This document shows, in pieces, positions 1-53,041 of a stretch of DNA of 54,182 nt. The stretch lies in NCBI GenBank assembly GCA_903861715.1, contig CAIOVI010000037.1, positions 1 through 54,182 on the forward strand, given 5' to 3'. Each line of letters starts with the position of its first letter. Position 1 is the stretch's first letter. A program made the position numbers and the translations under genes. Source of the stretch: an uncultured bacterium (GTDB lineage: Bacteria; Patescibacteriota; Minisyncoccia; Moranbacterales; GWC2-37-73). The notes beneath the pieces are model-generated. The model saw only the letters and a program-made list of their open reading frames with translations. It did no database searches and was not told the origin of the DNA.

Positions 1-3000
1 TAAAATATAACGCTTGTGCATAACTTGCAGAATAAAACCTTCCAGCATTGTCTACATTAAACTTGCTCGCACCACCCACCTGCAAATCCATCAAATTCCC
101 TGTGTACCCACTCACTTCATCGACTGCAATCGAGGTTCCGTTTGCCGAACCGGCGAATTTGCCGGCGGTTGAACCGTCGAACGCTCCGCCTCCAATTGAG
201 AGCGTTCCATAATTAACCGAGGCTGTCGGAGCGCCGGAGACACTGAGTTTTCCGTAGGGCGTAGAGGTGCCGATGCCGACGTTGCCGTTCGTATTTATAT
301 ACATTGAATAAGCACCGGTAGTTCCAACGGAACCCTGATAGAATCCAATTCCTGCTTTACTATAGTCATCAAAAATTAACTTTTGACCACCAGACCACAG
401 ATAATTTCCACTTGAAGGACCCGCTACTTGCGTGCCGCCGTCTTTAACGGTCCCAAAGATAATTCCATCAGTGTATGCGCTCAGTTTGTTATCGCCCACA
501 AAGAATAGCGAATTATTTGCGGCAGCATCATAGGCTGCAAACACATAGCCGTTCTGAGAACTTGAAACTTGGAGCTTTCCGTAAGTATCGGCAACAGTAT
601 TGCCAATCACAGTAGTCCCGTTAACCTGCAAAGCCGCCCCCGGACTCGTCGTCCCGATTCCGACATTGCCGTTGCCCAAAACAGCCAAGCGAGAACCGCC
701 GGTCAGGGTGTAGGCCACACTAGTGTTGGCGTTGGTGATGGCAGCCACAGTCATGGAGGTGTCAGATCCAATAGCTGAAATTGCAACAGTTTGTCCGCCA
801 ACGGTCACCGTGTCTCCAACTTTGAAAGTGTTGGTGAATTGCGTTCCCACACCCGTAAGCGTTGTGCCACCCGCCGTGTTGGAAACTGTGCCAGGCCCCG
901 TGGTTGGTTGCGTGACCTGGAGAAGTCCTGCTGGCGCAGTGGTGCCAATGCCGACGTTGCCTTGATAATCTATAGTGACCTTTTCACTCGTCCCAGTATA
1001 AAAACGATACCCTCCTCCGTTTGCAGCACCAGTTTGAAACCAAATATCATATTTAGAATTTCTTAAAGCCCCTATCCCTTGTCCGAAGAAATTAGTAGGT
1101 GCACTATTAAATCCCAACAAAGCCCCCGTGCTAATACCAGCAATCGGGTCGGCAGTGACCACGTTTAATAGAGACAAATACCCGTTTGTGGTTGCTACAT
1201 TCCCAGAAGTGGGATTATAACCAATATTCACTAAAGGAATACTATTGGCAACATTATATCCAACGCTTAATAAATTACTCGGACTCGTCGTCCCGATCCC
1301 CACATTCCCCGCCGCCACAATGAGTCCATAGTTATTGGTTCCGCCTGAAGCATTGAGATAAAGTCCGACGTTGGTGCCAGAACCAGTGTGGGTGTTTGAA
1401 ATCTGCGCCCCATAGGTTGAAATAGCCGCCGTGGCATTGGCTCCGGTGGTCAGAATGTTGAGCGCCGTTTGCGAAGCGCCAGCTGCGGTGCCAGAAACTT
1501 GCAGATCCATGAGGTCTCCGGTGGTGAGGGTTGAAGAAGCGCCGTAAAAACCAGTTCCCGTGGTGAGCGAATTGGCCGAAAGATTGAGAGCGGCTCCTGT
1601 GGTGATGCCAGTAGCATTGGCCGAAACAATTGAAAGCGTGCCACCAGGCGTGGCGTTGCCAATTCCAATTCTCCCATTCGTGCTATCCACATTCAAAAGA
1701 GTTGTCCCAGCCGAATTGGTGAGATTAAGAGCGCTCGTGCCAGCTGCCAGCATCCAGGCTTGGGCTTGATTGAGAGCCACGCCGCCAGCTGCGTCCAAGA
1801 CAATTTTTCCAGCGTTGAAAGTTTGCAAAGTCAAATAACTGGAACCAAAAGTTTCACCAGCCGAAATGGCAACTGGTCCAGCCGAATGAATGGTGGCAGA
1901 AGTTGCGTTGGTGAAAGTCAAATCATAAGCCATGGAAACATCGCCCACCGCCATGAAGGAAGTTGGATTGTTGAAAGTTGAAGCCGCTTCAGAAATGGTC
2001 ACGATGTCAGAGCCGTTGGCATTGAGATTGAGCAAATTGCCCGTGCCATCCGTGCGAATGGAAAGTCCGCCAGCCGAGCTGCCAGGGTTGAGGTTGTAAA
2101 TTCTGGCCAGATAGTCATTGGTGGATTTGGAAACATCCAACAAATATTGTGGGCTTGTATTGCCCAGCCCCAAGCGACTGTTTGTTCCATCATAGAAAAA
2201 ATTGGAATTGTCTTGCGCCATGTTGCCAGAAGCGTTGGCATAAAGCACCGAGCCGGCCGTGACCGAAGCAATGTTGCCGCCAATGGCCATCCCACCAGCG
2301 CCGGCTGAAATGGAAGTCCAAGCGCCGGTGGAATTTCTATATTCAATAATTCCCCCATTGTCACGCATGCCATAACCGCCTGCACCCGCCGTGGCTCCCC
2401 AGTTGAGATAGGAAGACGCAGTCAAATTCAAATTGCCAAAAAGTTTGGTCAGTGTGGTGGAAGCATTGCCGATGACGGTGGTGTTGGCGCCAAGTCCAAC
2501 TGCGCCATAGCCAATCACAATCGAATTAGGATCACTATTGGTAGCGCCCCTGGAACCAGCTCCGAGATAAATGGAATTTTCTGGATCAGTCATGGCAGTG
2601 ACTCCATCAGCTTGGAATTGTCCAGCTTGATAACCAAATGCCACATTGTTGGAACCAATTGTGTTGGCAAAAAGAGCATTGCTGCCAAAAGTGCTGTTGT
2701 AATTTCCGGTGGTGTTGCCAGCCGAAGCGCCAGCGCCAACCGCTGAGTTATAAGCTCCATTTGTGAGCGCCGAAAGTGTCGTGACTCCCAAGCCAGTGTT
2801 GAAGGAGGCCTGCGTGCCAGTTCCTGACATCGTGAAATTGCCAGCGCTGGTGCCGGCAAAAAAATTGCTGCCGCTGGTTCCGCTAGCCGCAAAATTGTGA
2901 ATAAAACGATTGACGCCTTTGTAAATCACGCCCGTGGTGGCAGTGGTGGTGTCGACCATGGCCAAAGACCCCGTCAGAGAAAGTTGCTGCGCAGCCGAGG

Positions 3001-6000
3001 TGGTGCCAAGTCCGATGTTGCCATTATCAAGCGCCACGATGCCCAGCGTGCCAGTGGCACTTTGGGTTTGAAAAGCAATGCCAGTGCCGGTGCCAGCGCC
3101 ACGCACATCCAATCTGCCAGCTGGCACAATTGTGCCAAGTCCCAGCCTAGAGTTGGCATCATCCCAGAAAAAATTGGTGTTGCTTTGATTGTAAGCTCCG
3201 GAATTTCCAGCAAAAACCACTGAGCCTTTGGTGAAGCGAGTTGGCGAACCAGTGCCACCATAAATCGGATCGATCACGGCTCCATTCCAAGTTCCATTGG
3301 CAATGGTGCCGGTGCGAACAATGTCAGAAAGATTGCCAGAAGTGATGACGGTGCCAGAAGCATCAGGCAAGAAATAGGTGCGTGCAGCAGTCAGATCGTT
3401 GATGGTGAGTTGTCCCCTGCCTTGCGGATCATAAAACCAAAGTGAAGTGCCAGCTGCGCCAGTGGCGGAAAAAGCATCTCCCGTCAAAGCGTTGCCGACT
3501 GAAGTGATGTCGCCGATGCCACCAGAACCAGCTGAACTCCACGCAAAATTGCTGCTAGCCGAATTATAAATCAACACTTGCCCTTCTGCGCCTGCATTTG
3601 AGGTGCTCAGATCAACTGGCAAAATAGTGCCATTGGTGATTTCGCTTGAGTCAATCGATTGACCCAACAGTGAAACTTCCCCTGAAGCATCCGGAAAAGT
3701 GATGGCACGATTGGCCGTTGGATCAGTGGTGTGTAGGGTGGTTTTATTTTGATCAATCGTAGCTCCCTGCAAGGTGATGTCACCCGTGGAAACGTCAAAG
3801 AAAAAAGCTGAATCCGTGGTGCTATTGCCACCCAGCGCCATGTCGCTAGTAATTGAATTGAGATAGGTGTAGCTGCCAGCATCCGTCCATTTGGAAGCGC
3901 CTGCCCCACCCGTGTTGGAAATCCAAACAAAGCCAGTTGAAATTGGATCGTAGGATAGAATGTAACCAGCCGAAGGACCATTGGTTGCAGCTAGATTGCC
4001 TGATTTGATGGTGGCACTGGCAATTTTGTTGCCAGTGATTGCGCTAGCGCCGATTGAAAAAACTCCTGCCGCAGTGATGGAAGCGTCGCCAGAAAGAGAA
4101 ACAAAAGCTGGAGTCAAGGTTCCATTGGAAACAAGCAACTGACCAGCCGAGATCGGAGCAGTGGCGGTGATAGCACTAGTGCCGTTGCCCAACAAAACGC
4201 CGTGCGGAGTAAAGACCCCCGCTCCGGTGCCACCACTGGCGATTGGCAAAAGTCCAACCACCGCCGAAGTCAAATCCACGGTCGTCCCCAAGGTGGAAGA
4301 AATGGTAATCATTGCTGAATCATTGTTGATGGCAATACCTTGACCCGCCATGAGCGTTCCCAAAGTGTAGCCACTGCCATTGCCAATCAGCAGGGCTCCG
4401 AAACCAGCGACCGTTCCATCCAGCCCGGTTCCCCCGTGCGCCACCGAAAGAGTCGGCGAAATGCTCCAGGTGCCCGAAGAAATGGTTGGCACTCCGCTTA
4501 AAGCATGCGTGTCCAATCCTGTCCCGCCAAGGTTTGCAGCCAGGGTTGAAGTGATATTCCACGCCCCTAAAGCAACAGTTGCCACTCCTGTTAAGGCGGA
4601 CGTATTCAGCCCCGTCCCACCATAAGCAGCGCCAATAGCGGCGCCATGCCAAGTGCCATTCGTGATAGTTGCTAGCTGAGTAATGTCGGGGAAATTGCCA
4701 GTCGTGATGATGGTGCCCGATGCATCTGGCAAAGTGTAGGTGCGAGGATTAGAAAGCGGTGCCAGTGTAAGTTGGCCCCGCCCGTGAGAATCATAAAACC
4801 AAAGCGAAGAACCTTGCGTGGAAGTTGCGGTAAAAGCGTCGTTGGAAATCACATCGCCGATTGAAGTAATATCGCCAATTCCACCTGAACCGATAGCCAC
4901 GGAACCAAAACCGCCAGTCGCATTATCATACACAATCACCTCACCATCTCTCGGCGCACCAGTCACTCCCGTGAAATTAAGGTCGGCTCCCAAAATCGTG
5001 CCGTTGGTAATTTCGCCCGTTTCAATTGTCTGACCCAAAGCAGAAAGTTCGCCGCTAACATTTGGCAAAGTCAGCGTGCGGTTGGCCGTTGGATCAACCA
5101 AGGTAAATGTTGTGCGATATTCATCAATCGTTGCTCCTTGAAAAATGATGCTATTGGAAGCTGCATCAAAGAACAGCGGCGCATCGATGGCTGAAGAAGA
5201 ACCAAGCGCCAAACCATTGGTTGTCTTGGAAAGATAGGTGTAAGCGCCAGTATCCGTCCACTTGGAAGCGCCCGAGCCGCCCGTGTTGGAAATCCAAGTA
5301 AAGCGCCCCAAGGAATCATATGTCAGAATATAGCCAGCAGTCGGATCATTAGTAACACTAAGATTATTTTCCTTAATTGTGTTATCAGCAATTTTCAAGC
5401 TATCAATTGCTCCAGTTCCAATGGTGATGGCGCCCGTAGCCGCAAGCGTTGCGTCGCCGCCAAGCGTTGCGAAAAATGGAAGGCCGCTAGCATTTGCGAG
5501 CAAAAGTTGTCCGCTCGTGCCAGCAGCTGAAGCTGCCACCGCGCTCGTGCCATTGCCGAAAAGCACCCCGTTAGTTGTCAGCGTGCTAGTGCCAGTGCCA
5601 CCGTTGACCACCGGCAAAATTCCCTCCACTTCCGAAGCAAGGTCAACCGAAGTGCCCAAAGTTGATGCGATCGAAATGGCTCCTGACGTATTCGCAATCG
5701 AAATGCCTAAACCAGGAGTCAGAGTCGCCAAGGTATAGCCCGAGCCGTTGCCAATCAGCAGCGCTCCGAAACCTGCCCCCGAACCGTCCAATCCAGTGCC
5801 ACCATAGTGAGTGGAAATGTTGCTTCCCTGCCAAACCCCAGTCGTAATGGTGCCAAGACTTCCCCAAGTCGAGAGTGCCACATTTTCCACGTTGCTCAAA
5901 CCAAGATCAGCTTTGGTCAAAGTTTGCCAGTTGACATCAATGCCATCGGAACGCAACACCTTGCCAGTGTCGCCGATTGGCAAGCGTCTCCACAAAGGAG

Positions 6001-7075
6001 TTGAGCCTTGTCCCACAATGAGGTCGCCCCTTTGAACCGAAGAAGCTTCCGTGTCAGGGTGCATCGAAGAAAGCAAGTTATGCTGACTGCCCGTGGTGCA
6101 AAGTTCCCAATAGGGAACGTTGTCTCTAACCTTCAGGCAATATCCTTCCGTGCCAATCGGCAAGGCAGCGAGCGCATTTTGCGCACTAGCAAAAAGCAGG
6201 TCGCCAGGATTGAAAGACGCCAGCCCCAAACCTCCCCGCCCAACTGGCAGAATCCCTGACACAAGTTTATCAGTGCTAAATTGCGAAGCCGTAGTTAAAA
6301 CCTGATCAAAAACAGAACCGTTGTTGGAAAGTTTCCAAACTCGCTCAGTTGCATCGAAGCGCAAAGTTGGCTTGGCGCTGTCATTTGAAACCGCCAAGTC
6401 AAAATTGGTCGAACCAACTGAAGTGCCTGAACCCACATTGAAAATAGTTTGGTCAGTGCCAGTGTCAGTGTTTTGATTGTGCAAACGAGAGTCGCTGCCC
6501 GTGATGAGTTGGCCAGTGCCAGTGCCAGTTGGCAACATCGCAACGTCAATTTGTCCGCCCGCTCCCAACATTGGAATGTCGCCCGCTTGATTGCCAATAG
6601 TTTTGCCTTGCAAATAAACTGAGTTGATGGCTGCTGGCACCGAACCAATTTTTTTGCGCGGAGCCATTTCGCCATCATTGCCAATCATCACTCCCAAATA
6701 ATAATCACCATTACTGAAAGTCAAAGAAACTGGCAAAGGAGTGGTGCTGCCCAAATAAGTGCTGATGAGTCCATTGGTGATGCTGATTTTTTGAGTTTCT
6801 GACCACACCTGCGAAGCTTTGTCGGAGTTGGATGGATACGGATCAAAATTTTGACGATCAGTAGTGTAAATCGCAAAACGCACATCATAATCACCATTAG
6901 CCAAGGCGGTTTTATCCCTATTGAGGACATAAGCAGAAATTGGAATTTGAGCGTTGGTTTGATTGACTTTGGTTTGCGCTTGAGCCGAAACAAAATTAGT
7001 CAAAAAAGCCAAGCCAAAAAACACCAAGCCAACACTTGCTGAAAGCATTATTTTAATTTTGTTTTTGATGTTCAT
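1..7075 (-). CDS. Giant secreted tail-fibre-like surface protein (3' end outside window)
   Basis: Reading the minus strand from the ATG at 7075, the frame stays open to base 1 (2358 codons, no stop), so the gene is partial. Residues 1-33 form a signal peptide (Lys-rich start, hydrophobic core, VSAQA cleavage site). Next come an Ig-like domain, two ~400-residue homologous units (about 424-822 and 879-1277), a stretch of AVG/AFG-type head repeats (about 1438-1487, ending AFGYQAG), then widely spaced copies of a NVGIGTTSP...L.V motif (residues about 1306-2280). In known proteins this motif belongs to phage tail-fibre and adhesin-like proteins ending in an S74 intramolecular chaperone; I expect such a C-terminus outside the window. 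The composition is rich in Gly, Thr, Ser and Ala and poor in Cys. Likely an exported adhesin or appendage; its target is unknown. No strong ribosome-binding site precedes the ATG. Confidence 0.85.
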   Translation of the reverse strand, partial: MNIKNKIKIMLSASVGLVFFGLAFLTNFVSAQAQTKVNQTNAQIPISAYVLNRDKTALANGDYDVRFAIYTTDRQNFDPYPSNSDKASQVWSETQKISITNGLISTYLGSTTPLPVSLTFSNGDYYLGVMIGNDGEMAPRKKIGSVPAAINSVYLQGKTIGNQAGDIPMLGAGGQIDVAMLPTGTGTGQLITGSDSRLHNQNTDTGTDQTIFNVGSGTSVGSTNFDLAVSNDSAKPTLRFDATERVWKLSNNGSVFDQVLTTASQFSTDKLVSGILPVGRGGLGLASFNPGDLLFASAQNALAALPIGTEGYCLKVRDNVPYWELCTTGSQHNLLSSMHPDTEASSVQRGDLIVGQGSTPLWRRLPIGDTGKVLRSDGIDVNWQTLTKADLGLSNVENVALSTWGSLGTITTGVWQGSNISTHYGGTGLDGSGAGFGALLIGNGSGYTLATLTPGLGISIANTSGAISIASTLGTSVDLASEVEGILPVVNGGTGTSTLTTNGVLFGNGTSAVAASAAGTSGQLLLANASGLPFFATLGGDATLAATGAITIGTGAIDSLKIADNTIKENNLSVTNDPTAGYILTYDSLGRFTWISNTGGSGASKWTDTGAYTYLSKTTNGLALGSSSAIDAPLFFDAASNSIIFQGATIDEYRTTFTLVDPTANRTLTLPNVSGELSALGQTIETGEITNGTILGADLNFTGVTGAPRDGEVIVYDNATGGFGSVAIGSGGIGDITSIGDVISNDAFTATSTQGSSLWFYDSHGRGQLTLAPLSNPRTYTLPDASGTIITTGNFPDITQLATITNGTWHGAAIGAAYGGTGLNTSALTGVATVALGAWNITSTLAANLGGTGLDTHALSGVPTISSGTWSISPTLSVAHGGTGLDGTVAGFGALLIGNGSGYTLGTLMAGQGIAINNDSAMITISSTLGTTVDLTSAVVGLLPIASGGTGAGVFTPHGVLLGNGTSAITATAPISAGQLLVSNGTLTPAFVSLSGDASITAAGVFSIGASAITGNKIASATIKSGNLAATNGPSAGYILSYDPISTGFVWISNTGGAGASKWTDAGSYTYLNSITSDMALGGNSTTDSAFFFDVSTGDITLQGATIDQNKTTLHTTDPTANRAITFPDASGEVSLLGQSIDSSEITNGTILPVDLSTSNAGAEGQVLIYNSASSNFAWSSAGSGGIGDITSVGNALTGDAFSATGAAGTSLWFYDPQGRGQLTINDLTAARTYFLPDASGTVITSGNLSDIVRTGTIANGTWNGAVIDPIYGGTGSPTRFTKGSVVFAGNSGAYNQSNTNFFWDDANSRLGLGTIVPAGRLDVRGAGTGTGIAFQTQSATGTLGIVALDNGNIGLGTTSAAQQLSLTGSLAMVDTTTATTGVIYKGVNRFIHNFAASGTSGSNFFAGTSAGNFTMSGTGTQASFNTGLGVTTLSALTNGAYNSAVGAGASAGNTTGNYNSTFGSNALFANTIGSNNVAFGYQAGQFQADGVTAMTDPENSIYLGAGSRGATNSDPNSIVIGYGAVGLGANTTVIGNASTTLTKLFGNLNLTASSYLNWGATAGAGGYGMRDNGGIIEYRNSTGAWTSISAGAGGMAIGGNIASVTAGSVLYANASGNMAQDNSNFFYDGTNSRLGLGNTSPQYLLDVSKSTNDYLARIYNLNPGSSAGGLSIRTDGTGNLLNLNANGSDIVTISEAASTFNNPTSFMAVGDVSMAYDLTFTNATSATIHSAGPVAISAGETFGSSYLTLQTFNAGKIVLDAAGGVALNQAQAWMLAAGTSALNLTNSAGTTLLNVDSTNGRIGIGNATPGGTLSIVSANATGITTGAALNLSANSLTTGTGFYGASSTLTTGDLMDLQVSGTAAGASQTALNILTTGANATAAISTYGAQISNTHTGSGTNVGLYLNASGGTNNYGLIVAAGNVGIGTTSPSNLLSVGYNVANSIPLVNIGYNPTSGNVATTNGYLSLLNVVTADPIAGISTGALLGFNSAPTNFFGQGIGALRNSKYDIWFQTGAANGGGYRFYTGTSEKVTIDYQGNVGIGTTAPAGLLQVTQPTTGPGTVSNTAGGTTLTGVGTQFTNTFKVGDTVTVGGQTVAISAIGSDTSMTVAAITNANTSVAYTLTGGSRLAVLGNGNVGIGTTSPGAALQVNGTTVIGNTVADTYGKLQVSSSQNGYVFAAYDAAANNSLFFVGDNKLSAYTDGIIFGTVKDGGTQVAGPSSGNYLWSGGQKLIFDDYSKAGIGFYQGSVGTTGAYSMYINTNGNVGIGTSTPYGKLSVSGAPTASVNYGTLSIGGGAFDGSTAGKFAGSANGTSIAVDEVSGYTGNLMDLQVGGASKFNVDNAGRFYSASYAQALYF
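3246..4440 (-). repeat. Internal ~400-residue duplication, unit 2
   Basis: Codons 879-1277 of the giant gene. It is collinear with unit 1 over its whole length, with only small insertions or deletions, and differs at many residues, so the duplication is old rather than an assembly artefact. Confidence 0.85.
4610..5806 (-). repeat. Internal ~400-residue duplication, unit 1
   Basis: Codons 424-822 of the giant gene. The unit starts at YGGTGLDG and runs through GALLIGNGSGYTL, AGYIL.YD, WISNTGG.GASKWTD, QGATID, DPTANR, GQ.I...EITNGTI and SLWFYD..GRGQLT to the next GGTG. Unit 2 keeps the same order of motifs. Between the units lie three short GGTGL repeats of about 26 residues. Confidence 0.85.
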
Positions 7076-7266
7076 CACCCTGATAATTTTTCGGCAATTA
7101 AAAGCTTTTTTTGCTTCTTAGCCAACCTTCTTTTACTTCCAAAGTATAGCATGATTTTGACTTTTTTTGTAGTGGAAATTTGGGCGTTTTTTTGACGCAA
7201 CTGTGGATAACTTTTTGGAGCTTGTTTTGAAGTCCCAACCTCCCTAAAATCCACAACCAAGCAAAC

Positions 7267-10234: not shown

Positions 10235-10315
10235 CAATTTTACGTAGCGTGCTACGTGATTGTGAAACAATTTTACGTAGCGTGCTACGTGATTGTGAAA
10301 CAATTTTACGTAGCG
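10235..10315 (+). repeat. 33-base tandem repeat in the tRNA leader
   Basis: Two full units (10235-10267, 10268-10300) and a third cut off at 10315. Each unit begins CAATTTTACGTAGCG. In units 1 and 2 this is followed by TGCTACGTGATTGTGAAA, which folds back on it; in unit 3 it runs straight into the truncated tRNA copy. Each unit therefore repeats the tRNA leader plus the first four tRNA bases (AGCG). Confidence 0.85.
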
Positions 10316-10353
10316 GGATGGAGCAGTCTGGCAGCTCTCCGCCGGTTGGCGGA
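10312..10353 (+). repeat. Truncated 5' copy of tRNA-iMet capped by a hairpin
   Basis: 10312-10337 is identical to the first 26 bases of the intact initiator tRNA (10390), ending at the D-stem. It is followed directly by the palindrome TCCGCC-GGTT-GGCGGA (10338-10353) and 36 bases of spacer. It lacks the anticodon and T arms, so it is not a functional tRNA. Confidence 0.85.
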
Positions 10354-10389: not shown

Positions 10390-10463
10390 AGCGGGATGGA
10401 GCAGTCTGGCAGCTCGCGTGGCTCATAACCACGAGGTCGTAGGTTCGAATCCTACTCCCGCAA
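10390..10463 (+). tRNA. Initiator tRNA-Met (CAU)
   Basis: 74 bases with anticodon loop CTCATAA. Initiator features are an unpaired A1/A72 end and the A11:U24 D-stem pair. The T arm is GTAGG-TTCGAAT-CCTAC. The anticodon stem is CGTGG/CCACG, so only two of the three G:C pairs typical of initiators are present (position 29:41 is U:A). The 3' end is not followed by an encoded CCA. Confidence 0.9.
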
Positions 10464-10566
10464 CAAATCATAGAACATGAAACAAGAAACATGGAACATA
10501 AAAATGCAAAAAATATGTTTTTTTGTTTTTGCTCCATGCTCCATGTTTTGTGCTTTATGAAATCTT

Positions 10567-50810: not shown

Positions 50811-51036
50811 GGAGAAGTGACTGAGAGGGTCGGATGCGAGTGTGCGAGCATCAGACGGGTTTCAAAAGAAACCCTGGCGGCCCGAAGTCCACAAATTTTT
50901 GAATTTACAAAGTAAATAGATATGGAGAAGTGACTGAGAGGGTCGGATGCGAGTGTGCGAGCATCAGACGGGTTTCAAAAGAAACCCGGGCGGCCCGAAG
51001 TCCACAAATTTTTGAATTTACGAAGTAAATAGATAT
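50811..51036 (+). repeat. Two 113-base units, each led by a tRNA-Ser(GCU) 5' fragment
   Basis: Unit a 50811-50923 and unit b 50924-51036 differ at only a few bases. Each starts with the first 18 bases of the tRNA at 51037 (GGAGAAGTGACTGAGAGG), ending at the D-loop GG. Then come a 9-bp stem (GTCGGATGC with GCATCAGAC), the hairpin GGGTTTC-AAAA-GAAACCC, a segment CCCGAAGTCCAC resembling the tRNA continuation, and an AAATTTTTGAATTT hairpin. No open reading frame and no anticodon arm. Confidence 0.9.
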
Positions 51037-51185: not shown

Positions 51186-51233
51186 GGAAGCATGGCCTCC
51201 GCCCAAGGCGGATCCGCCTTGGGCGGAGAGTGG
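51186..51233 (+). repeat. tRNA-Ser(UGA) 5' fragment split by a paired-hairpin palindrome
   Basis: 51186-51197 equals tRNA bases 1-12 (GGAAGCATGGCC) and 51228-51233 equals bases 13-19 (GAGTGG). Between them lies the 30-base palindrome 51198-51227 (TCCGCC-CAA-GGCGGA, then TCCGCC-TTG-GGCGGA). The insertion point is between tRNA nucleotides 12 and 13. Confidence 0.9.
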
Positions 51234-51252
51234 TTATTATTTCTTGTGGCTT

Positions 51253-51501
51253 ATGTACTACGTATATATTCTAAAAAGTAAGAAAAATAGCAAATTGTAT
51301 AAAGGATTTACTGCGGATTTACGTAGAAGAGTTGTGGAGCATAATTCTGGAAATTCTGAGTTTACAAAAAATAATAGGCCATGGAAACTTGTTTATTATG
51401 AAGCGTTTGTGAATGAAAAAGATGCAAGAAGAGAAGAAAAATTTGTAAAATCTGGAAAGGGGAGAGAAAGAATAAAATATTTATTTGAAAATCTAGAATA
51501 A
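51253..51501 (+). CDS. GIY-YIG nuclease domain protein inside a tRNA-fragment cassette
   Basis: 82 residues from the ATG at 51253. An upstream frame to 51184 only translates the tRNA fragment and palindrome. It is a stand-alone GIY-YIG domain: MYYVYILKSKKNSKLYKGF (first and second Tyr strands), LRRRVVEHN (catalytic Arg), FVNEKDARREEKFVKSG (catalytic Glu). Such small domains cut DNA in homing endonucleases and repair enzymes. It is flanked by direct repeats (ATAAATTGGAAGCATGGCC, 51182 and 51499), and the stop codon lies inside the second repeat. This placement suggests it is the enzyme of a tRNA-gene-targeting element. Confidence 0.88.
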   Translation: MYYVYILKSKKNSKLYKGFTADLRRRVVEHNSGNSEFTKNNRPWKLVYYEAFVNEKDARREEKFVKSGKGRERIKYLFENLE

Positions 51502-51504
51502 ATT

Positions 51505-51615
51505 GGAAGCATGGCCGAGTGGGTCAAATGCGAAAAAAGAGCATTTGACGGGTTTCAAAAGAAACCCAGGAACCCGAGGTCATTCAAATTTTTGCATTTT
51601 TGAAAAAAATATTAA
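51505..51615 (+). repeat. 111-base unit led by a tRNA-Ser(UGA) 5' fragment
   Basis: Starts with the first 18 bases of tRNA-Ser(UGA). Then a perfect 9-bp stem GTCAAATGC/GCATTTGAC, the same hairpin GGGTTTC-AAAA-GAAACCC as at 50811, CCCGAGGTC, and an AAATTTTTGCATTT segment. The first stem differs from the 50811 units at two pairs, one G:C to A:T and one mismatch to A:T, so pairing is kept. Confidence 0.88.
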
Positions 51616-51700
51616 GGAAGCATGGCCGAGTGGTTGAAGGCAACAGTCTTGAAAACTGTCATGGGGAGACCCATCGTGAGTTCGAATCTCACTGCTTCCT
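51616..51700 (+). tRNA. tRNA-Ser (UGA)
   Basis: 85 bases. Acceptor GGAAGCA/TGCTTCC, anticodon stem-loop ACAGT-CTTGAAA-ACTGT, variable arm ATGGGGAGACCCAT, T arm GTGAG-TTCGAAT-CTCAC. Discriminator U73, as in the other Ser tRNA here. No encoded CCA. Confidence 0.93.
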
Positions 51701-51708
51701 CAAAAAAT

Positions 51709-52673: not shown

Positions 52674-52713
52674 ATCCTTGTAGCTTCCGCCCAAGGCGGA
52701 CAGGCAGTGGATA
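52674..52713 (+). repeat. tRNA-Arg 5' fragment split by a palindrome
   Basis: ATCCTTGTAGCT (near-copy of tRNA bases 1-12), then TCCGCC-CAA-GGCGGA plus CAGG (52686-52704), then CAGTGGATA (tRNA bases 13-21). The break is again between tRNA nucleotides 12 and 13. Nine bases later the intact tRNA begins. Confidence 0.87.
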
Positions 52714-52722
52714 AAATTTAAT

Positions 52723-52795
52723 GTCCTTGTAGCTCAGTGGATAGAGCGTCTGGTTGCGGTCCAGAAGGTCGCAGGTTCGATTCTTGCCAAGGACA
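52723..52795 (+). tRNA. tRNA-Arg (GCG)
   Basis: 73 bases. Acceptor GTCCTTG/CAAGGAC, D arm with A20 (AGTGGATAGAG, an Arg identity element), anticodon stem-loop TCTGG-TTGCGGT-CCAGA giving anticodon GCG, T arm GCAGG-TTCGATT-CTTGC. Most bacteria read CGN with an ACG (inosine) anticodon instead. No encoded CCA. Confidence 0.88.
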
Positions 52796-52803
52796 CAAAG
52801 ATA

Positions 52804-52825
52804 GCCCGCCGAAAGGTGGGTTTTT
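52804..52825 (+). terminator. Terminator after tRNA-Arg
   Basis: CCCGCC-GAAA-GGTGGG and five T, nine bases past the tRNA end. The outer bases CACAAA/TTTGTG extend the hairpin. Confidence 0.85.
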
Positions 52826-52863
52826 GTGTGCTTGGAGTGAGTGAATGATTTCACTCACGTCAG

Positions 52864-52960
52864 GAATCGAACGCCGGAGCAATTTTTGTCAGCAGACAAA
52901 AATGCGAGGCGGTGGCCAGACAAATTTTTGCGACGGCAAAAATTTAGTCGCGGCCGATTC
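52864..52960. repeat. Palindrome-rich insert with GAATCG/CGATTC ends
   Basis: Lies between the two copies of the tRNA-Arg 3' end. Its ends GAATCG (52864) and CGATTC (52955) are inverted repeats matching the T-loop sequence of the tRNA. Inside are GCAATTTTTGTC-AGCA-GACAAAAATGC and GAC-AAATTTTTGC-GACG-GCAAAAATTT-GTC hairpins. No coding frame. Confidence 0.8.
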
Positions 52961-53041
52961 TTGCCAAGGACACAAAGATAGCCCGCCGAAAGGCGGGTTT
53001 TTGTGTGCCTGGAGTGAGTGAAAGATTTCACTCACTCCAGG
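52955..53041 (+). repeat. Duplicated tRNA-Arg 3' end with its terminator
   Basis: CGATTCTTGCCAAGGACACA and the following terminator hairpin repeat the sequence from 52778, at a distance of 177 bases, with only a few changes. The copy ends with a perfect palindrome CCTGGAGTGAGTGAA...TTCACTCACTCCAGG (53008-53041); in the first copy the right arm of this palindrome is broken. Confidence 0.9.

Follow-up and report, generated by a model that had tools for sequence, protein, structure and literature searches.

Short palindromes interrupt partial copies of tRNA genes at recurrent positions in the DNA analysed here (the window, 54,182 nucleotides, which is the entire contig C37 of a 1.28-Mb genome), and the main position is the point between tRNA nucleotides 12 and 13 (12|13). 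Insertion at this point is clean, the same sites recur across genomes, small GIY-YIG nuclease genes are linked to tRNA genes with a constant order of parts, and alleles without the cassette exist. The evidence points to a mobile family that has gone unrecognised, best read as a homing-like cassette with a GIY-YIG nuclease that invades tRNA genes and is present both in active form and as remnants. In order along the window, the features concerned are:

10312..10353, plus strand: partial 5' copy of tRNA-fMet (26 nt, 10312-10337) with palindrome TCCGCCGGTTGGCGGA (10338-10353)
10390..10464, plus strand: intact tRNA-fMet, 3' of its interrupted copy (ARAGORN)
50811..51036, plus strand: two tandem class A elements (tRNA-Ser(GCT) nucleotides 1-18 and hairpins), 5' of the intact tRNA-Ser(GCT); related context, outside the palindrome insertion itself
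51186..51235, plus strand: partial 5' copy of tRNA-Ser(TGA), nucleotides 1-20, split between nucleotides 12 and 13 (sequence comparison)
51198..51227, plus strand: 30-bp perfect double hairpin TCCGCCCAAGGCGGA-TCCGCCTTGGGCGGA (sequence, pattern search)
51253..51501, plus strand: small GIY-YIG nuclease ORF, 82 aa, between the interrupted and the intact tRNA-Ser (Pfam PF01541)
51505..51615, plus strand: second partial 5' copy of tRNA-Ser(TGA), nucleotides 1-18, then other hairpins (class A leader element)
51616..51701, plus strand: intact tRNA-Ser(TGA) (ARAGORN)
52675..52713, plus strand: partial 5' copy of tRNA-Arg(GCG), nucleotides 2-21, split between nucleotides 12 and 13 (sequence comparison)
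52686..52704, plus strand: 19-bp insertion TCCGCCCAAGGCGGACAGG, a hairpin with a CAGG tail (sequence, pattern search)
52723..52796, plus strand: intact tRNA-Arg(GCG) (ARAGORN)

The 5' part of the intact tRNA-Arg(GCG) reads GTCCTTGTAGCT|CAGTGGATA, with the 12|13 point marked, and the upstream copy reads TCCTTGTAGCT[TCCGCCCAAGGCGGACAGG]CAGTGGATA, with the insertion in the inner brackets. The left part of the copy stops at nucleotide 12 and the right part restarts at nucleotide 13, no base is lost or duplicated, and the placement is unambiguous. Only 9 bp separate this copy from the start of the intact gene. In genome G002 (L159) the insertion occupies the same site, with CAGA replacing CAGG. The intact tRNA-Ser(TGA) reads GGAAGCATGGCC|GAGTGGTTGAAGG and its upstream copy GGAAGCATGGCC[TCCGCCCAAGGCGGATCCGCCTTGGGCGGA]GAGTGGTT, where the insertion consists of two palindromes head-to-head; the 30-bp double hairpin is identical, and at the same site, in G001 and G002. 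The interruption of the tRNA-Arg and tRNA-Ser(UGA) copies between nucleotides 12 and 13, which was the starting observation of the preliminary description, is thus exact at the level of single bases in both. The fMet copy breaks after nucleotide 26 of the gene called by ARAGORN, a different place from that of Arg and Ser, and there is therefore more than one site.

Directly 3' of the interrupted Ser copy lies the GIY-YIG ORF, which is found at the same position in G001/G002 as in the window. Its product matches Pfam PF01541 (E=3.2e-15), and the nearest solved chains are the UPF0213 proteins 1zg2 and 1ywl. No DNA-recognition module was recognised beside the GIY-YIG domain of this 82-aa protein. 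The genome has about 41 tRNA genes, many of which adjoin short partial copies of themselves, and hairpins are found inside tRNA copies at five loci (Ser, Arg, fMet, Lys and Thr(CGT)). The Lys locus is a tandem array on contig C35 that contains another GIY-YIG ORF, and the Thr(CGT) copy carries a different hairpin, CCAGCCTACCGGCAGGCAGG, located in the T-loop. In a broken tRNA-Thr copy 5' of tRNA-Thr(TGT) (L124), palindrome CCATATCATCCGATATGG occupies both the D-loop and the T-loop positions.

Other structured elements accompany the tRNA genes. Class A elements begin with tRNA nucleotides 1-18 and continue with two hairpins, one variable, in which compensatory changes are seen, and one conserved, GGGTTTCAAAAGAAACCC; throughout the family they precede the genes for tRNA-Ser(GCT), tRNA-Ser(TGA) and tRNA-Cys (50811-51036, 51505-51615, L115:6940-7059, L157) and look like conserved structured leader RNA. 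A class B element 3' of tRNA-Arg (52797-53041) comprises an inverted T-arm copy, inner hairpins and then a direct copy of tRNA nucleotides 56-74, and similar inverted T-arm copies also lie 3' of the Gly, Pro, Tyr, Gln, Lys and Glu tRNAs. At the other end of the window, a minus-strand reading frame with an open end (2-7078, 2359 aa) represents a giant protein truncated at the contig end.

Several more familiar elements were ruled out. Rfam finds no group I intron at the window sites; one is present elsewhere (L115:2005-2196 on contig C38, RF00028, 69.5 bits), apparently in a tRNA anticodon loop. An integrase att site does not fit: it is the tRNA 5' end, not the 3' end, that is duplicated, and the copies have no ORF of integrase size between them. 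A functional tRNA with a D-loop hairpin, as the complete palindromic tRNA-Asn of G122 might appear to be, is ruled out by an intact tRNA-Asn 4.8 kb away. Read by eye, this intact gene adjoins the end of a GIY-YIG-like ORF.

Alleles without the cassette were found both between and within genomes. G003 has neither the Ser cassette nor the interrupted upstream Arg copy (L157), and the Ser cassette is common to G001 and G002 at the same site. In the window's own genome, an identical stretch of 121 nt, made up of 98 nt of upstream flank and nucleotides 1-23 of tRNA-Lys, is found at the end of contig C40 and within C35; past it, C40 continues as the intact tRNA-Lys and C35 as the palindrome and GIY-YIG array. 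These look like coexisting alleles without and with the cassette, though the divergence might stem from the assembly. This arrangement suggests that the original 5' half of the gene survives as the interrupted upstream copy, and that regeneration produced the intact gene downstream.

Scans across genomes were used to locate the breaks. The pattern TAGCT-N(0-16)-TCCGCC-N(3-4)-GGCGGA, which admits breaks from nucleotide 12 to 28 (17 possible points), gave 12 to 13 sites with the 12|13 break in 128 Moranbacterales genomes. A scan of 380 genomes of the phylum, open to the same number of break points, gave 10 exact 12|13 matches, seven of them no more than 350 bp from the same intact tRNA; the break of two apparent outliers, L430 and L436, is at 12|13 as well, and their hairpins are longer and nested. 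In both open scans the tRNA-associated matches fall at 12|13, 17|22 and 23|32 and almost nowhere else. In the 128 genomes, the 12|13 class (TAGCT|hairpin) involves Arg, Thr, Lys, Val and other tRNAs; the 17|22 class (TAGCTCAGTT|hairpin...GTCC|GAGC) involves Thr, Lys, Ala, Val and Ile; and the 23|32 class (...GGTAGA|16-nt hairpin|CTNNNAA) involves Lys, Arg and Asp, with 16 nt replacing 8 nt in the measured cases. A single Asn case breaks at 13|14. When six genomes were scanned for any double hairpin, blind to tRNA sequence, 44 were found, of which eight lie in tRNA copies and six of these eight at 12|13 (chance about 2e-5 for any one of 17 positions).

A further scan for TAGCT|TCCGCC covered 85,000 species genomes. 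Pooled over all scans, the matches listed comprise at least 77 hairpin-interrupted copies, at least 54 of them at 12|13, from at least 24 isoacceptors, and the interrupted copy lies on the 5' side of the intact gene in 76 of 77. Most of this pool was chosen by the 12|13 pattern, and a few of its loci are related or duplicates; statistics were taken only from the unselected scans. Carriers include Kerfeld-, Falkow-, Uhr-, Magasanik- and Kaiserbacteria, Elusimicrobia, Omnitrophota and Flavobacteriales (Bacteroidota), and one is a named, deposited strain, Sediminibacterium goheungense DSM 28323 (L321), whose 12|13 copy precedes tRNA-Met. Single cassettes also break at 14|15, 21-22, 34|35 and 35|36. 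The main site is 12|13, with further sites that recur with particular tRNAs or hairpin types, and the earlier suggestion of one exact site proved too narrow, given the fMet break and the recurrence of 17|22 and 23|32; the three or more recurrent points in the 128 genomes rule out a single universal one.

The palindromes themselves form a much larger family. In the window there are six matches at no more than two mismatches, against 0.08 expected, and none of 100 shuffles reaches six. Pattern searches give about 30 to 40 copies per genome, mostly outside tRNA copies. The hairpin sequences vary (TCCGCC/GGCGGA, TCAGCC/GGCTGA, CCAGCC/GGCTGG, TGCGCC/GGCGCA and others), and what stays constant is the stem length of 6, the loop of 3 or 4 and the pairing; the same site hosts single hairpins as well as 30-bp double hairpins. 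It had been proposed that unrelated flanks in most copies would speak against a preferred site. Such flanks do characterise the family as a whole, and they do not characterise the copies inside tRNA fragments, which cluster at fixed positions. At five loci (L286, L312, L325, L335 and L337) an inverted copy of the interrupted tRNA 5' strand lies 3' of it, and the stub folds as a closed hairpin around the palindrome.

The GIY-YIG genes are strongly associated with tRNA genes. In six genomes, 13 of 30 GIY-YIG loci have a tRNA gene within 400 bp, against about 1.4 expected (p ~3e-10), and about 17 have none within that distance. Nine of the 13 follow one plan, consisting of a tRNA 5' copy, hairpins, a few more tRNA bases, the ORF and the intact tRNA. 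The order of tRNA 5' copy with double hairpin, ORF and intact tRNA is seen for Ser(TGA), Ser(CGA), Ser(GCT), Ser(GGA), Cys, Gln, Glu and Lys. The break in these ORF-bearing cassettes is at 12|13 in Ser(TGA) and Ser(CGA), 14|15 in Cys and Ser(GCT), 21-22 in Gln, 23|32 in Lys, 34|35 in Ser(GGA) and 35|36 in Glu. Elsewhere (L274, contig C8, 21211-21746) a GIY-YIG ORF lies between copies of a repeat with CCGCCCCGGGCGG, with no tRNA nearby, and this is possibly the same type of cassette in another target.

The best-studied GIY-YIG enzyme, I-TevI, has the cleavage motif CNNNG (PMC4065259). The C11-N-N-N-G15 of tRNA fits this motif, and the 12|13 and 14|15 breaks fall inside it; the breaks at 17|22, 21-22, 23|32 and 35|36 do not fit. 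The match is weak evidence, because C11 and G15 are nearly universal in such tRNAs. I-TevI nicks at CN^NN and NNN^G, positions that would presumably correspond to the breaks at 12|13 and, in Cys and Ser(GCT), at 14|15. The preliminary description had gone from the shared break to a site-specific cut. A process that prefers certain sites is strongly supported, by the clustering in the open scans and by the double hairpins at 12|13; the cut itself is plausible because a GIY-YIG nuclease is linked to the copies and the motif fits, but the same pattern of breaks would be expected from structural targeting or from homology-guided copying.

We propose that these are tRNA-gene-invading cassettes of the homing-endonuclease type, with a free-standing GIY-YIG nuclease and a hairpin at the old point of cleavage or entry, and our confidence in this proposal is close to evenly balanced. 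A small nuclease, encoded by the cassette or acting in trans, would open tRNA genes at a small number of conserved positions, the main one of which lies in the first conserved box, T8-R-G-C-N12|N13-A-G15. Repair of the break would install a GC-rich hairpin or 30-bp double hairpin there, and in full cassettes the nuclease ORF would then be added and a complete tRNA gene regenerated downstream. The upstream 5' half, which would keep the native flank and promoter side, would stay permanently interrupted, and the interruption may protect the donor from being cut again. Loss of the ORF from most copies would leave stubs of tRNA nucleotides 1-12, hairpin and nucleotides 13-20, located 20-100 bp 5' of the functional gene.

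This proposal is favoured because the 12|13 break recurs with different hairpins and different tRNAs, because the interrupted copy is so consistently on the 5' side among the matches listed, because the linkage of GIY-YIG genes to tRNA genes exceeds expectation and has a fixed order of parts, because alleles without the cassette exist (G003; C40 against C35), and because there are precedents in SegB (PMC13096335) and in the rRNA-gene insertions of CPR bacteria (PMC11270868). Against it, the Arg and fMet copies in the window and most 12|13 copies elsewhere have no ORF, the nuclease is a single domain of 82 aa with no recognisable DNA-binding module, several break points lie off CNNNG, the model does not account for how the regenerated tRNA gene escapes being cut again, more than half of the GIY-YIG loci have no tRNA gene within 400 bp, and most hairpins lie outside tRNA copies. 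We regard as possible, while leaning against it, the broader claim of a mobile palindrome class that enters a universal DNA box of tRNA genes (nucleotides 12/13) site-specifically, whatever the tRNA identity, with regeneration of the gene, in several phyla, and through a nuclease recognising either the conserved box or the tRNA-gene hairpin.

Transposition could also disperse such hairpins. A transposase-driven palindrome family, REP/RAYT-like or using another form of single-strand transposition, might enter the single-stranded hairpin loops of tRNA genes, with the GIY-YIG ORFs as secondary passengers; the high copy number outside tRNA copies, the breaks in or beside the D, anticodon and T loops and the many interrupted copies with no ORF would all suit it. 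However, the palindromes that belong to the Y1 transposases of the genus are different ones, so that a REP/RAYT origin is unsupported, and no TCCGCC hairpin lies near the single Y1 gene of this genome, where a cognate palindrome would flank the gene. The breaks share no tetranucleotide such as GTAG, and no conserved G(T/G)AG was found at the hairpin feet, which read AGCT, GGCC, AGTT and TAGA. With GIY-YIG linkage far above chance as well, we consider transposition unlikely.

Homology-guided copying, in which one TAGCT-hairpin-CAGTTGG copy spreads by template switching or gene conversion within conserved D-arm bases and the exactness reflects microhomology, would explain why 12|13 hairpins within one genome are often near-identical (Thr and Lys of G084) and why most insertions are flanked by conserved TAGCT and CAGTTGG. 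Yet this homology is only 5-7 nt per side while the acceptor part of the interrupted copies is always the local tRNA's own, Ser has the same break with different flanks (GGCC|GAG), and different genera carry different hairpin sequences at the same site, which makes such copying improbable. A role as functional leader RNAs that start with the tRNA 5' strand has also to be considered, the hairpin position being selected for the way the RNA folds; the duplicate 5' strand might, for instance, be sequestered to leave the real tRNA free to fold. The class A leaders of Ser and Cys tRNAs do keep their hairpins by compensatory changes, and the inverted copies of the 5' strand at the five loci named above agree with sequestration, but most 12|13 copies decay soon after nucleotide 20 with no further structure in common, alleles with no copy at all are viable in the genus, and folding alone would hardly yield one position across phyla; we rate this role as quite improbable. 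Finally, palindromes of a family so common in the genome might have landed independently in decaying tRNA pseudogenes, which the preliminary description had allowed for its two cases. The recurrence of 12|13 in unselected scans, with a chance of about 2e-5 or less, rules this out.

If the proposed cassettes are real, the tRNA genes of Patescibacteria and other phyla are repeatedly struck by a compact mobile system, one which tolerates and repairs the disruption of essential single-copy genes. This would join three puzzles: why these genomes abound in orphan palindromes, what role their numerous small GIY-YIG proteins play, and how the short insertions other than introns in CPR rRNA genes are to be explained. 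Interrupted tRNA copies also confuse tRNA annotation and assembly, and the fixed break point makes a direct biochemical test easy. A full-text search of open-access papers returned no description of fixed-site palindromes in tRNA copies, a weak indication of novelty.

Rickettsia palindromic elements, mitochondrial double-hairpin elements and GC clusters are short, GC-rich palindromes or double hairpins scattered through genes and spacers, and their structure is better conserved than their sequence. The palindromes described here are likewise dispersed with a kept fold, also inside genes (44 double hairpins in six genomes), and the likeness is one of form. In uvrC (L053:632, contig C26) palindrome TCCGCCTTGGGCGGA is apparently in frame, as read by eye, adding SALGG-like residues, an in-frame insertion that resembles those of the Rickettsia elements. 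For all three groups we know of no fixed site in tRNA copies and no linked nuclease. REP/RAYT systems (REPtrons) are also short dispersed bacterial hairpins, but here the Y1 genes have other cognate palindromes and the hairpins have no guide tetranucleotide.

SegB of T-even phages is a free-standing GIY-YIG homing endonuclease that cleaves tRNA genes internally, at a conserved box, and leads to tandem amplification of segments of them (PMC13096335). It is a phage enzyme, whereas the present cassettes lie in a bacterial chromosome, and its motif RAWTSGAAC is T-arm-like rather than D-arm (PMC13096335). The two are alike in that a GIY-YIG enzyme is encoded beside tRNA genes, as at the 13 linked loci, and tandem amplification of tRNA segments may be compared with the Lys array on C35. 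As expected of a SegB-like element, the Ser cassette encodes a catalytic GIY-YIG domain and element-free alleles exist; the Arg copy has no ORF and the window protein no separate DNA-recognition module. SegB is larger than the single-domain ORF of the window cassette, and we know of no hairpin insertion or interrupted 5' copy associated with it.

A study of insertions in the rRNA genes of CPR bacteria, which makes no mention of tRNA, found GIY-YIG ORFs solely in insertions other than introns and placed most insertions at stem-loops, at either the top or the base (PMC11270868). Those insertions lie inside a functional rRNA gene; in the tRNA cassettes, by contrast, the interrupted copy is followed by an intact gene. 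Both occur in the same radiation, target genes for structural RNAs, include non-intron GIY-YIG ORFs and have many short forms with no ORF, and the rRNA-gene insertions are likely to be the rRNA counterpart of the tRNA cassettes.
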